IMG/VR virus record: IMGVR_UViG_3300003691_000053
Location: 1 to 23,811 of that record
Source: a virus
Reading direction: 5' to 3' (one strand)
DNA: 23,811 nt
Both the position numbers and the translations under genes were made by a program. Below, one piece after another: positions 5,509 to 19,599 of the stretch (position 1 is the stretch's first letter; each line of letters opens with the position of its first letter). The notes below the pieces were generated by a model. It made no database searches. It worked only from the letters and a program-made list of their open reading frames with translations, and was not told where the DNA came from.

Positions 5509-5699
5509 TGTTTTCCTTTTTTTCTTTTATACAAATGTTCACTAATGCTTGTTATATATTTTACACAATCATTACACCAATCATTTATCTCTTTTAATTT
5601 GAGATTTTTACCATTATAAGATTCATCTGTATTAAGATTAATCCATTGTTGAGTATAAACATTAGTTCCACCACATGTTGGACATACTATTTTAATCAT
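5505..5699 (-). CDS. Small zinc-ribbon protein (64 aa)
   Basis: Two cysteine pairs, CPTC (residues 6-9) and CNDC (42-45), separated by about 32 residues, form a typical zinc ribbon. The C-terminus is basic (YKRKKGKQ), so nucleic-acid or protein binding is plausible. No specific family was recognised. It overlaps both neighbours by one to four bases, so translation is coupled with the DUF1599-like protein and the 64-aa unknown. Many phages carry such short zinc-ribbon proteins with no known role. Confidence 0.7.
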   Translation of the reverse strand: MIKIVCPTCGGTNVYTQQWINLNTDESYNGKNLKLKEINDWCNDCVKYITSISEHLYKRKKGKQ

Positions 5700-5893
5700 T
5701 ATTTCTGTTTTTTTACAATATCTTCATAAGAACAGTGATTACTAAAAGACATACATAAATGAGAAAGTGAATATTTTCTACCACTTTTAGCAGTAATTGA
5801 ATCACCTTCTAAATCTAATACATCATTAATAGTAAATTCATTATCATATAAATAATTCCATGCTTCATGAATTTTAGTTATTATTACTTTCAT
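5699..5893 (-). CDS. Small protein of unknown function (64 aa)
   Basis: No family was recognised. It begins MKVIITKIHEAWNYLYD and carries a short basic patch (KSGRKYS) in the middle, followed by two cysteines and a charged tail. It is soluble by composition. The start overlaps the ThyX stop and its stop overlaps the zinc-ribbon start, each by about one base, so it is almost certainly translated as part of the nucleotide-metabolism operon. Function unknown. Confidence 0.6.
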   Translation of the reverse strand: MKVIITKIHEAWNYLYDNEFTINDVLDLEGDSITAKSGRKYSLSHLCMSFSNHCSYEDIVKKQK

Positions 5894-14145: not shown

Positions 14146-14171
14146 ACAATTGGTGGAGCATAGGGGAATCG

Positions 14172-14832
14172 CATTATTTATATTTAAAAAACTCTATTCC
14201 TAACTCATTCCTATACTGTTTTTCTAATTCAGTATATTTTCCATTTCTTTTAGTAGCTGCTTGTATTTTTTTATATACAGCAATCCTATGTTTTTTCTTT
14301 GGATGAAATGATTTAAGTTTTAATGATACTTGATATCCTTGATTGTAAAGATATTTCAAATCATAACTTATTTTATGAGTTTCTTTTTTTGGAGGTTTCT
14401 TACTAATATGTCCTTTTATACCTAATTCTTTATAAATAAAGTATTGTATTCCAATTAATAATTCCATTTCTGTATTATGAAATGATACTTGTATAGTTTT
14501 ATTTTTACTACTACTTGCGGATGTAAAAGTTATTGACCCATCAGCATCAAAAAAACCTGATATATATTTCCAATTCATTTTACAAACATAGGTAATATCT
14601 ATACCACCTCCAAATTAAATATTCTATAATTTCTTATAGGATCGGACTATATCATCATCTGTTCAAGATGTTGCTTCCTGTAGGCTTGCCATAGCATCCT
14701 TAGTCTCTGAACCTGCTCACTTCTTCCAGTGAGATTGGCTGCTGATTGTCATAGGTTTCCACACCCTTAGAGTTCCAGCAATTCAAGCAATTTTTAATTA
14801 TATATCCCTATATAATGGGTCCGTATTCCTTA
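14172..14832 (-). ncRNA. Group I intron in the tmRNA T-loop
   Basis: All core helices can be drawn. P1: exon GGGTT (14837-14833) with guide GACCC (14821-14817), U.G at the splice site. P2: TTATATA GGGA TATATAA. P3: GCTTG (14788-14784) with CAAGC (14688-14684). P4: GCTG with CAGC (14779-14776, 14744-14741). R: GTTCAGAGACTA; S: GATATAGTCC; P7 GACTA/TAGTC. P8: CATCT/AGATG. P9: CTATAA GAAA TTATAG. The intron ends with G at 14172, directly before CGATTCCCC, and carries a LAGLIDADG ORF after P9. Group I introns at the tmRNA T-loop are known from some bacteria as I recall. Splicing should be self-catalysed. Confidence 0.93.
14174..14578 (-). CDS. LAGLIDADG homing endonuclease (intron-encoded)
   Basis: A 134-aa single-motif LAGLIDADG protein. 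YISGFFDADGSI (residues 5-16) is the signature helix with the catalytic Asp, and the rest (ISKKPPKKETHKISYDL, then the basic end AVYKKIQAATKR) fits the DNA-binding saddle. A single motif means it works as a homodimer on a near-palindromic site. Here the target is presumably the intronless tmRNA T-arm, which is itself palindromic-like. The ORF lies after P9 and its TAA ends 1 nt before the terminal G of the intron, so stop codon and 3' splice site are nearly fused. Some such proteins also help splicing. Confidence 0.88.
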   Translation of the reverse strand: MNWKYISGFFDADGSITFTSASSSKNKTIQVSFHNTEMELLIGIQYFIYKELGIKGHISKKPPKKETHKISYDLKYLYNQGYQVSLKLKSFHPKKKHRIAVYKKIQAATKRNGKYTELEKQYRNELGIEFFKYK

Positions 14833-15002
14833 AACCCCTGTCCAAAATATCTTACTAAATAAATCTTTTTACACACTTAGGTTTTGAATAGATTTCCTTC
14901 TATGGAGTTGACCACCATGCAGTTTTGTGTTCTGCAAAACAAAATTCCAAAAAAATAAATGATTAATGATTCTGTTTCCAAGCTCATTAATAAGCTCAGT
15001 TC

Positions 15003-16817: not shown

Positions 16818-17519
16818 TTATATAATATTAAGAATTTTTGCTTCTCTTAACCAATCAGGAAACTCATCCATCATCTTGTTATATAGATCATCATCAGTCA
16901 TTTTATTGATGTCAACAACTTTAAAAAAGTTAGCATTATCAACTCTACGACCAGACATGTTATCTAATTTTTCAAGAAAACCAAAGCTTGCTCTACCAAT
17001 TCCAATGAATTGAAAGAATATTCCATGATTAGCTGCATTTGTTATAGCTCTTTCTGCATGAAATGAATCACTACAGTCTCCATCAGCTAAAAACATTACA
17101 TAGGCTGGATCACCTTTTTCACTAGTATATTTTTCTTGGATCATTTCAATGATAGGAGTATAAGAAGTACCACCCATTCCATATTTATCCATAATTTCAC
17201 GTTTTACAACATTGTCAAAATGAGCAGGTGAAATTTCACCTAAATCATATGCTTTGTTATGAAATATAAATAAATCAATAGCTTGATTATCATCAAATGT
17301 AACACCAACAGGTAACAATCTTTCAACTACTTGTTGTACTGTACCATTTTGGTATAAACTATCCATAGAACCTGAATAATCAAGTACTAAAGCAACTCTG
17401 GCTTTTTGTTCACCAATACCTTTTGCAGTGGTGATTTTTTTAACGAGATCAACTCGTTGTTTAATAAGATCCACCTTATTAATAGGTGGAGCCTTATCTT
17501 TTTTACCAAATCCAAACAT
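16818..17519 (-). CDS. TerF-type VWA domain protein
   Basis: A 233-aa VWA protein of the type found at the C-terminus of TerF. The MIDAS is LVLDYSGSM (residues 45-52) and the segment SLYQNGTVQQVVERLLPVG (54-72) is close to the TerF pattern. GGTSYTP and MFLADGDCSD supply the further metal-site residues. The first 40 residues are lysine rich and lack a TerD domain, so this is the stand-alone form. In Ter systems such VWA proteins are thought to scaffold TerD-family proteins at the membrane. It overlaps the TerD stop as TAATG, so the two are coupled. Confidence 0.8.
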   Translation of the reverse strand: MFGFGKKDKAPPINKVDLIKQRVDLVKKITTAKGIGEQKARVALVLDYSGSMDSLYQNGTVQQVVERLLPVGVTFDDNQAIDLFIFHNKAYDLGEISPAHFDNVVKREIMDKYGMGGTSYTPIIEMIQEKYTSEKGDPAYVMFLADGDCSDSFHAERAITNAANHGIFFQFIGIGRASFGFLEKLDNMSGRRVDNANFFKVVDINKMTDDDLYNKMMDEFPDWLREAKILNII

Positions 17520-18103
17520 TAGATTCCGTATTCAGTATTTAATGCTTCTAAACCACCTGAAAATTCTACTTGATCAGCAGAAAATGCCCAAGTATCACCT
17601 TTTCTAAAGATAGTAGCAAACTTAACACCTGTTGCTGTAGAAGCATCAAAGTTTAAGTCAAAATGAATAGCTTCTTTCTCACCACCTGTCATATCAAGTA
17701 ATCTAACAAAGCTATTCTCAACCATACCAAAGTTCTGACCTCTACTGTCAGCTTCAAAGATATTAACTACAACAACCAATTTATCAATGTCAGCAGGTAC
17801 TTTGCTCAAATCAATTTTGATTTGTTCATCATCGCCATCACCATCACCAGTAAGATTATCACCAGTATGCTCAACAGAACCACAAGGAGATTTTAAGTTG
17901 TTAAAGAAAACAAAATTTGTCACAGGACTAACTCTACCATCTTTGTTTACCATATAAACAGAAGCATCTAAATCAAACTCAGCACCATTAGCACCAGTTT
18001 GTTTAGCATCCCAACCTAAACCAACCATGATAGCTGTCAAAGCAGTTACACCATCATCTTTGGTAAGTTTAACCTTACCACCTTTTACTAAATTTACACT
18101 CAT
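17519..18103 (-). CDS. terD: TerD-family tellurium/stress resistance protein
   Basis: A 194-aa TerD-family protein: GLGWDAK (residues 28-34), EFDLDASVYMVN (42-53), EHTGDNLTGDGDGDDEQI (78-95), the VVVNIFEADSRGQNFGMVENSFVRL stretch (from about residue 111) and a C-terminal RKGDTWAF. The acidic DGDGDDE block is the conserved Ca2+-binding part of the family. The length is typical. TerD proteins occur in tellurite, colicin and phage resistance operons; their biochemical role is unresolved. Here it heads a four-gene series with TerF-type VWA, TerB-like and Ca2+ exchanger. Whether it gives host resistance or protects infection is not known. Confidence 0.9.
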   Translation of the reverse strand: MSVNLVKGGKVKLTKDDGVTALTAIMVGLGWDAKQTGANGAEFDLDASVYMVNKDGRVSPVTNFVFFNNLKSPCGSVEHTGDNLTGDGDGDDEQIKIDLSKVPADIDKLVVVVNIFEADSRGQNFGMVENSFVRLLDMTGGEKEAIHFDLNFDASTATGVKFATIFRKGDTWAFSADQVEFSGGLEALNTEYGI

Positions 18104-18695: not shown

Positions 18696-18732
18696 AAAAA
18701 AAAGAGCAACTGAAATAAATCAGTCACTCTTT
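18696..18732 (-). terminator. Terminator of the tRNA cluster
   Basis: Minus-strand AAAGAGTGACTGA / TCAGTTGCTCTTT (one mismatch or G.U), six-base loop, then eight Ts. It closes the tRNA and structured-RNA transcript before the membrane protein gene. Confidence 0.85.
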
Positions 18733-18736
18733 GTGT

Positions 18737-18869
18737 TATAGAAAGGAATAGTTTACTATGTGTCATTATGTAAATACAGGAATTGAACCTGTTACCTTAA
18801 AATTAAGAGTTTCATGCTCTACCAACTGAGCTAAAATACGAAGTAACATAATAATTTACCATTTCTATA
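18737..18869 (-). ncRNA. tRNA scaffold cassette C1 (holds tRNA-Lys)
   Basis: Outer stem TATAGAAA (18869-18862) with TTTCTATA (18744-18737). The 5' core is TGGTAAA, TTATTATG, TTACTTCGTA (18861-18837). The 3' core is TAATGACA, CATAGTAA, ACTATTCC (18768-18745). TTATTATG pairs with CATAGTAA (8 bp, one G.U), and GG with CC. The same plan occurs in C2 and C3 with different stem sequence and the same single-stranded blocks, so the pairings are supported by covariation. It looks like an RNA scaffold with a tRNA body inserted in its loop. Confidence 0.75.
18769..18840 (-). tRNA. tRNA-Lys (CUU) body, weak acceptor
   Basis: D-arm GCTC AGTTGGTA GAGC, anticodon arm TGAAA CTCTTAA TTTTA (anticodon CUU), T-arm ACAGG TTCAATT CCTGT are all canonical. 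The acceptor is poor: CGTATTT against ATTTACA pairs at only four of seven positions, because the 5' strand is the conserved scaffold sequence TTCGTATTT shared with the Gln copy. Upstream GTAAAT could pair with ATTTAC instead, leaving a 20-nt insert before position 8. CCA is not encoded. It may be a functional tRNA after unusual processing, or a decoy. Confidence 0.6.
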
Positions 18870-18870
18870 G

Positions 18871-18945
18871 AGATTGATATAGGATTTGAACCTATGACCT
18901 TCTGATTAACAGTCAGATGCTCTAGCCAAGCTGAGCTAATCAATC
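18871..18945 (-). tRNA. tRNA-Asn (GUU)
   Basis: Acceptor GATTGAT/ATCAATC (7 bp), D-arm GCTC AGCTTGGCTA GAGC, anticodon arm TCTGA CTGTTAA TCAGA (anticodon GUU), variable AGGTC, T-arm ATAGG TTCAAAT CCTAT. A normal tRNA lying between cassettes C2 and C1, with no scaffold around it. CCA is not encoded and the discriminator base appears to be U, unusual for Asn. Confidence 0.9.
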
Positions 18946-18953
18946 TTAAAATA

Positions 18954-19086
18954 AACAAGAGGAATACTTATAAATGTGTCATTAATGTATGTGTTGGAGT
19001 TGAACCAACGACCTCAAAAACCAAAATTTTGCGTTCTAACCATCTGAACTAAAATACGAAGTAACATTTACATTTACCATCTTGTT
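18954..19086 (-). ncRNA. tRNA scaffold cassette C2 (holds tRNA-Gln)
   Basis: Outer stem AACAAGA (19086-19080) with TCTTGTT (18960-18954). The 5' core is TGGTAAA, TGTAAATG, TTACTTCGTA (19079-19055). The 3' core is TAATGACA, CATTTATA, AGTATTCC (18984-18961). TGTAAATG pairs with CATTTATA (8 bp, one G.U). The core blocks equal those of C1 while both stems differ in sequence yet still pair. The insert is a tRNA body in normal order. Confidence 0.75.
18986..19058 (-). tRNA. tRNA-Gln (UUG) body, weak acceptor
   Basis: D-arm GTTC AGATGGTTA GAAC, anticodon arm CAAAA TTTTGGT TTTTG (anticodon UUG), variable AGGTC, T-arm GTTGG TTCAACT CCAAC. The acceptor CGTATTT/ACATACA pairs at five of seven positions; the 5' strand is identical to that of the Lys copy because it is part of the scaffold. 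CCA is not encoded. The body is sound, so the unusual ends are likely to matter. Confidence 0.62.
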
Positions 19087-19092
19087 GTGTTG

Positions 19093-19131
19093 TTCCTCTG
19101 TACTGATATACCAGATGTAGCTCCAGAGAAA
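19093..19131 (-). repeat. Hairpin between cassettes C3 and C2
   Basis: TTTCTCTG (19131-19124) pairs with CAGAGGAA (19100-19093), 8 pairs with one G.U. The loop holds GAGCTACATCTGGTATATCAGTA, within which CTG/CAG can pair. It may be a spacer or processing site in the cluster transcript. No T-run follows, so it is not a terminator. Confidence 0.4.
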
Positions 19132-19159
19132 AAGTTTTATCTACTTTGTTTATATTTTT

Positions 19160-19309
19160 AAAAAATTAAGGAATACTAATAAAAGTGTATTATCTAAAAA
19201 TTTGAGTTTAAATCAAACGTGTTAACCAATTACACCATACTCTTTTGCAAGAATAATAGGACTCGAACCTATACTACGAAGTAACTTTTATTTTTACCAT
19301 TAATTTTTT
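19160..19309 (-). ncRNA. tRNA scaffold cassette C3 (holds permuted tRNA)
   Basis: Outer stem AAAAAATTAA (19309-19300) with TTAATTTTTT (19169-19160), 10 bp. The 5' core is TGGTAAA, AATAAAAG, TTACTTCGTA (19299-19275). The 3' core is TAATACA, CTTTTATT, AGTATTCC (19192-19170). AATAAAAG pairs perfectly with CTTTTATT. The single-stranded blocks match C1 and C2 while both stems covary. Here the insert is a tRNA in permuted order, so the scaffold joins the tRNA at the variable loop rather than at the acceptor. Confidence 0.75.
19201..19272 (-). tRNA. Circularly permuted tRNA (anticodon UAA)
   Basis: In transcript order: T-arm ATAGG TTCGAGT CCTAT (19272-19256), acceptor 3' strand TATTCTT (19255-19249), loop GCAA, acceptor 5' strand AAGAGTA (19244-19238), D-arm GTGT AATTGGTTA ACAC, anticodon arm TTTGA TTTAAAC TCAAA (to 19201). 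The acceptor pairs at 7 of 7 positions with one G.U. Every tRNA arm is present, but the 3' half comes first, as in the permuted tRNA genes of some algae and archaea. The break is in the variable loop. Anticodon UAA would read UUA (Leu). The G after the acceptor and the same GCAAAA as in tRNA-Asp are odd for Leu. Use as a tRNA would need cutting and ligation. Confidence 0.7.
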
Positions 19310-19317
19310 GGGTTGGT

Positions 19318-19391
19318 TAGGATAATTTAAAGTGTTGCACTAGCTGAGAAACTATTTTAACGATTATTCAGCAACAAATTTTGTTATCCTA
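19318..19391 (-). ncRNA. Large hairpin upstream of cassette C3
   Basis: TAGGATAA (19391-19384) pairs with TTATCCTA (19325-19318), and inside it TGTTGC pairs with GCAACA and TGA with TCA. At about 74 nt it has tRNA size, but no T-arm (GGTTC) or anticodon arm can be drawn, so it is not called a tRNA. Role unknown. Confidence 0.45.
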
Positions 19392-19443
19392 TTCAGATGT
19401 TATCTCCATTATTACATCTTACCAGATCTTAAAGAACTTTTTG

Positions 19444-19517
19444 CAGTGCATACGGGATTTGAACCCGTAATCTCTTCCGTGACAGGAAAGCAACATACGC
19501 TAATATGATGATGCACT
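19444..19517 (-). tRNA. tRNA-Asp (GUC)
   Basis: Acceptor AGTGCAT/ATGCACT (7 bp), D-stem CATA/TATG, anticodon arm CTTTC CTGTCAC GGAAG (anticodon GUC, one G.U), T-arm ACGGG TTCAAAT CCCGT, discriminator G as expected for Asp. It is the first tRNA of the cluster transcript. CCA is not encoded; GCAAAA follows. Confidence 0.85.
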
Positions 19518-19599
19518 AAATAATATTGTGATGCAAATATATAAATATTAATTTGAAAATGAACTAATATTTATATAAATGTTTAATTTTTTATTAAAA

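Follow-up and report, generated by a model that had tools for sequence, protein, structure and literature searches.

Y RNAs are ligands of Ro60 proteins. In the bacterial YrlA RNAs, as described in the accessible part of one study, the basal stem tethers Rsr/Ro60 and a domain resembles the D, T and acceptor arms of tRNA (PMC8394870), and the bacterial Y RNA structure 6CU1 (Salmonella YrlA) superposes on tRNA by means of a circular permutation, according to the accessible part of another (PMC11472068). According to excerpts from two further papers, phages too can encode Y RNAs (PMC7765460, which cites Sim and Wolin 2018), and jumbo phages are known to have TROVE proteins (PMC7824862).

Here we analyse a stretch of viral DNA of 23,811 nucleotides (the window). 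What looks there like a tRNA gene in scrambled order is in all likelihood a phage Y RNA, and many other phages have RNAs of this design with different anticodons.

Results

An earlier note on the window had described a circularly permuted tRNA at 19201-19272. The complete cloverleaf could be recovered arm by arm on the minus strand at exactly these coordinates, in the 5' to 3' order T arm, 3' acceptor strand, GCAA, 5' acceptor strand, D arm and anticodon arm, with the chain ends at the variable loop (Table 1). As claimed, the acceptor stem is closed across GCAA by seven of seven pairs, the loops are canonical throughout, and the flanking scaffold is attached at the variable loop, where leader and trailer form a basal stem. 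This leader-trailer pairing consists of S1 (8 bp), a GGUAAA/UAUUCC loop, S2 (9 bp) and the motif UUACUUCG opposite AAUACA. Two features sought in a Y RNA, a basal stem built from the 5' and 3' ends and T, acceptor and D arms in permuted order, are thus both present in the window RNA. ARAGORN called no tRNA at the permuted cloverleaf in its scan of the window, and the Rfam tRNA model matched only the 5' half of it (19182-19244, 35.8 bits), both as would be expected of a permuted order. The thermodynamic fold of this A+T-rich RNA, computed on the single sequence, was of unremarkable stability (z -0.55).

The tRNA-like features of the window are all confined to the minus strand of 18700-19520, where ARAGORN called Asp, Gln, Asn and Lys tRNAs. 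The tRNA-Gln(UUG) (18985-19058) and the tRNA-Lys(CUU) (18768-18840) are ordinary-order cores of cassettes that have the basal-stem arrangement of the permuted RNA with other stem sequences, and their acceptor stems contain two and three mismatches, respectively; these window 'tRNAs' are further Y RNAs. The sequence GTTACTTCGTA, an 11-base part of the motif, occurs in exactly three copies in the window (18837, 19055 and 19275), one per cassette, and the S2 sequence varies from cassette to cassette. The tRNA-Asn and tRNA-Asp are without the basal-stem and motif arrangement, and no Y RNA is claimed at 19366-19506, which scored just 19.2 bits (rough E-value 0.026) under the covariance model R1 described below. 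The tRNA-Asp (19443-19517, minus strand) has an abnormal D arm that lacks the usual G18G19. A lone terminator-like hairpin follows the cluster, and a single transcript is therefore plausible. Genes for a TerF-like vWA protein and TerD adjoin the RNA cluster (16818-18103, minus strand).

Table 1. Predicted RNA features of the window and the evidence for each.
Feature	Position	Strand	Remarks
Y RNA 1, whole putative permuted tRNA-mimic RNA	19162-19308	-	R1 91.3 bits, E 7.5e-18 (filters off, E-value rough)
Outer basal stem S1, 5' strand	19300-19307	-	pairs with 19162-19169; covaries across phages
Outer basal stem S1, 3' strand	19162-19169	-	8 bp with 19300-19307
Basal stem S2, 5' strand, AAUAAAAGU	19284-19292	-	9 bp with 19178-19186
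Basal stem S2, 3' strand	19178-19186	-	pairs with 19284-19292
UUACUUCG internal-loop motif	19277-19284	-	invariant in 16/16 rows of A1
T arm	19256-19272	-	5/5 pairs, loop TTCGAGT
3' acceptor strand	19249-19255	-	7/7 pairs with 19238-19244, one G-U
GCAA loop capping acceptor stem	19245-19248	-	position 73 would be G
5' acceptor strand	19238-19244	-	partner of 19249-19255; then U8/G9
D arm	19219-19235	-	GUGU/ACAC; A14, G18G19 and A21 present
Anticodon arm	19201-19217	-	5/5 pairs, loop UUUAAAC, U33, A37
Anticodon UAA	19208-19210	-	within anticodon arm
Y RNA 2	18953-19088	-	R2 106.6 bits, E 3e-20; ARAGORN
Y RNA 3	18737-18870	-	R2 100.1 bits, E 6.8e-19; ARAGORN
Terminator-like hairpin with T tail	18701-18732	-	3' of cluster; 1 found vs 0.3 expected in shuffles

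Elsewhere in the window, a phage tmRNA (14151-15131, minus strand) has a T loop that is apparently interrupted by a group I intron (14623-14843, 82.8 bits) with a LAGLIDADG open reading frame (14174-14578). Its 5' part reached 23.4 bits in Rfam, under the cut-off, and its 3' exon CGATTCCCC...CCA ends at 14151.

Protein searches with two upstream genes revealed no related loci, a megablast comparison of the full window with phages gave no match, and no close relative sharing its gene order was found. A first leader pattern yielded 24 loci, none with an adjoining tRNA, which were taken as chance matches, and a close-copy pattern yielded three loci, all ordinary tandem tRNAs; both were abandoned. 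A pattern combining the motif with a tRNA D arm detected one phage contig, L028, which carries a second permuted tRNA, a tRNA-Arg in a Y stem, a motif hairpin without tRNA and a TROVE/Ro60 gene (Pfam TROVE, E 7.6e-15). L028 alone among the related records also showed a strong match to the window DNA polymerase (33-39% identity), which was absent from csAssE-Sib, cr111_1 and LR745206 (0/3) in a search run without a positive control. The combination of motif, T arm and D loop retrieved 62 loci; inspection by eye assigned 38 of them to the Y RNAs and took the other 24 for ordinary tRNA 3' ends or comparable chance hits. With a stricter pattern, 10 loci, four of them with R1 hits, were retrieved from 84,980 genomes of bacteria and archaea; the hits in one of the ten, L110, are identical to those of virus record L054. 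In L033, L035, L046, L058, L069 and L078, the mimics are accompanied by short hairpin Y RNAs that carry the UUACUUCG motif but have no tRNA module. Among the Y RNA phage contigs, tmRNA matches were noted in L034 (5724-6218), L041 (312-712) and L046 (2427-2793), and a GOLLD RNA in L085 (451-938, minus strand).

The earlier note had proposed a search for the same permuted layout in related phages, and across phages the layout does recur. Sixteen permuted phage loci, with the window left out, were aligned (A1) and used to build the covariance model R1, under which the window RNA scored 91.3 bits; the best score in 40 control loci was 40.8 bits. The alignment has six helices (S1, S2, T, acceptor, D and anticodon). 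Two-sided changes were found at 29 of its 33 pairs, and 88.4% of cells pair, a percentage biased upward by a structure drawn from one row and based on cell counts inflated by the mutual relatedness of the sequences. Covariation was 0.652, as against 0.206 (sd 0.019) in shuffled and at most 0.204 in slid alignments, and both S1 and S2 covary, S2 being partly misaligned. In 48 related loci, 137 hits of R1 reached E<=0.01, a total that includes partial matches to ordinary tRNAs. Judging by the R1 score and the recurrence across phages, the permuted layout is beyond chance.

A second alignment (A2) comprised 21 ordinary-order RNAs outside the window, each a tRNA within a Y stem, and the derived model R2 likewise left the window out. 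In S1, 87.3% of cells pair, with two-sided changes at all six pairs, and in S2, partly misaligned here as well, 62.3% pair. The 7-bp acceptor region is kept in 13 of the 21 RNAs and missing in the other eight, which therefore cannot be working tRNAs. R2 gave 24 hits of at least 88.4 bits, 21 of them model members, the next hit having 73.7 bits; its best score in the control loci, which include many ordinary tRNAs, was 54.8 bits. Two topologies thus occur, a permuted one with the stem at the variable-loop side and an ordinary one with the stem at the acceptor end.

The anticodons were surveyed in 22 permuted RNAs (the window RNA, the 16 of A1 and five others), all chosen for having the arm. The anticodon stem has five of five pairs in 21 of them and four of five in one, U33 is present in 20 and a purine at position 37 in all 22, and 14 different anticodons are represented. 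Y RNAs without an anticodon arm occur in the same loci (for example L034 at 11225, L063 at 3139 and L078 at 4581). An N-CCA sequence at the start of the acceptor loop in eight of the 22 suggests descent from tRNAs with an encoded CCA.

A TROVE gene was detected (E<=1e-3) in 31 of the 32 virus records other than the window with such RNAs, with 29 above the curated cut-off, and in none of 40 control records, a contrast somewhat favoured by the shorter average length of the controls. The exception was L089, a Y-RNA-like record without TROVE, and two further records fell under the curated cut-off. The controls were the 24 set-aside loci, set aside before the TROVE test, together with 16 of the 27 loci from the first-leader and close-copy patterns; of the 38 Y RNA loci, L050, L056, L066, L069, L071 and L080 were left out of the count as near-duplicates or parts of the same record. 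The nine loci other than L110 from bacterial and archaeal genomes were tested likewise, and TROVE was present in all three with an R1 hit and in none of the six without. The 23.8-kb window, a genome fragment, contains no TROVE/Ro60 gene; one would be expected in the missing part of its phage genome.

Identity to the L028 Ro60 protein is 47% for both the Ro sixty-related protein of csAssE-Sib and a cr111_1 (Crassvirales) protein annotated as hypothetical. The name csAssE-Sib suggests a crAss-like phage, and the taxonomy of its record is just Caudoviricetes. In csAssE-Sib (OR575929.1, L100), one permuted and two ordinary-order Y RNAs lie directly upstream of the Ro60 gene; the permuted one scored 57.0 bits with R1 and seemingly has no anticodon arm, and the ordinary-order ones, both model members, scored 90.7 and 98.1 bits with R2. 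The latter two are annotated as tRNA-Tyr and tRNA-Lys (5666-5738 and 5811-5884), and both annotated tRNAs sit inside Y RNA stems. In cr111_1, a Y RNA with an ordinary-order tRNA-Gln core lies close to the Ro60 gene and scored 99.5 bits with R2 from outside the model.

The Rfam YrlA model (RF02553) matched four of eight related loci with 30.9-35.3 bits, under its gathering score of 69, and the match in L041 overlaps an ordinary tRNA. In the window the gathering score of 69 bits was not reached: the permuted RNA gave no match at E<=10, and 16.3 bits were obtained elsewhere. The permuted tmRNA model (RF04321) had no match up to E 10 at 19162-19308, and the RNA is not identified as a tmRNA by it.

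Discussion

The observations as a whole are best explained, and very probably correctly, by a Y RNA of the YrlA kind with a Ro60-binding stem and an unspliced tRNA mimic, the Gln and Lys cassettes likewise being Y RNAs. The 5' and 3' ends of the window RNA pair through S1, an internal loop, S2 and the UUACUUCG internal loop, and the resulting basal stem would most likely bind the Ro60/TROVE ring protein, with the UUACUUCG motif as part of the predicted binding region. The far end displays the complete permuted cloverleaf with its GCAA-closed acceptor stem and the anticodon UAA. This tRNA part may act as a mimic that docks or occupies tRNA-recognising proteins on the Ro60 particle; it would stay unspliced, and charging would not be expected. 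In the Gln and Lys Y RNAs the stem extends or replaces the acceptor end. The earlier note had named an uncharged tRNA mimic as an alternative to its permuted tRNA gene, and this alternative we judge to be right, with the lack of charging as a prediction.

Its other proposal, a permuted tRNA gene whose transcript must be cut and rejoined, is not supported, as the same leader-trailer stem also encloses tRNAs in ordinary order and plain hairpins, for which no rejoining is required. For the same reason the scaffold is not a splicing signal, and the idea of such a signal or a ribozyme was dropped after L028 had shown the stem around a tRNA in ordinary order as well as around a short hairpin in the vicinity of a TROVE gene. 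That leader and trailer are cut off, the circle ligated and then opened at GCAA into a working tRNA-Leu(UAA) is accordingly very improbable, even though the cloverleaf is complete, its loops are canonical and leader and trailer pair. An RtcB ligase, which could speak for such a gene, was found in five of the 33 records of the related set and not in the other 28, the window among them, and its link to Y RNA records is weak. The tRNA-Leu of bacteria is marked by A73 and a long variable arm; in the window RNA, position 73 is G.

Without any ligation, RNase P and a 3' nuclease might open the acceptor loop while the basal stem holds the two halves together, much as the halves of a two-piece tmRNA are kept together, to give a chargeable, Ro60-tethered tRNA. 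Seven of seven acceptor pairs in 19 of the 22 permuted RNAs and an N73-CCA kept at the start of the acceptor loop in eight of them would agree with such a two-piece tRNA. The window loop, however, is just GCAA and has no CCA, and eight of the 21 ordinary-order relatives lack any 7-bp acceptor stem, which means that the family, taken together, is not designed for charging; we regard this possibility as very improbable. The position in a tRNA cluster could also point to rearrangement debris, that is, two broken tRNAs abutting by accident, but the seven of seven acceptor pairs, the conserved stem, the R1 score, the covariation and the recurrence in many loci refute it and leave it almost no likelihood.

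In phages that carry Ro60, genes annotated as tRNAs are probably Y RNAs, those for tRNA-Tyr and tRNA-Lys in csAssE-Sib included, and a decoding role should be credited to them only on proof. Full mimics with varied anticodons that are tied to Ro60 offer a handle on the role of the phage Ro60 particle, for instance in protection from anticodon nucleases. Such protection has already been proposed for bacterial YrlA; in the accessible part of that report, an anticodon nuclease did not accept the tRNA-like domain of Salmonella YrlA as a substrate, and competitive inhibition by this domain was put forward as a possibility (PMC7790460). The real anticodon loops in the phage panel would fit a decoy role. 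It is conceivable, though rather doubtful, that Ro60 phages carry an isoacceptor-specific panel of mimics, held by Ro60 as decoys or traps for anticodon nucleases and other tRNA enzymes. In the literature covered, excerpts from papers other than the original Y RNA reports, neither Y RNAs with an anticodon nor ones of ordinary order are mentioned.

Comparison with known systems

In permuted (two-piece) tmRNA the acceptor half is encoded first and closed by a loop, and the window RNA resembles the RF04321 family in this respect. With the permuted tRNA genes of Cyanidioschyzon and some archaea it shares the 3' half placed before the 5' half and the junction at the acceptor end; it differs in that its ends form a conserved stem common to non-permuted cassettes, and excision and ligation are without support. 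The likeness to YrlA (RF02553) extends to the two-part basal stem formed from both ends, the order T arm, capped acceptor stem and D arm, and, in the related records, the association with Ro60/TROVE genes. The phage RNAs differ from YrlA in their stem motifs (UUACUUCG and GGUAAA/UAUUCC) and in scores under the Rfam cut-off. They also have a complete anticodon arm, for which the Rfam consensus has no counterpart, and occur in an ordinary-order version as well, and these last two features, in which they depart from the Rfam YrlA model, we provisionally consider new.
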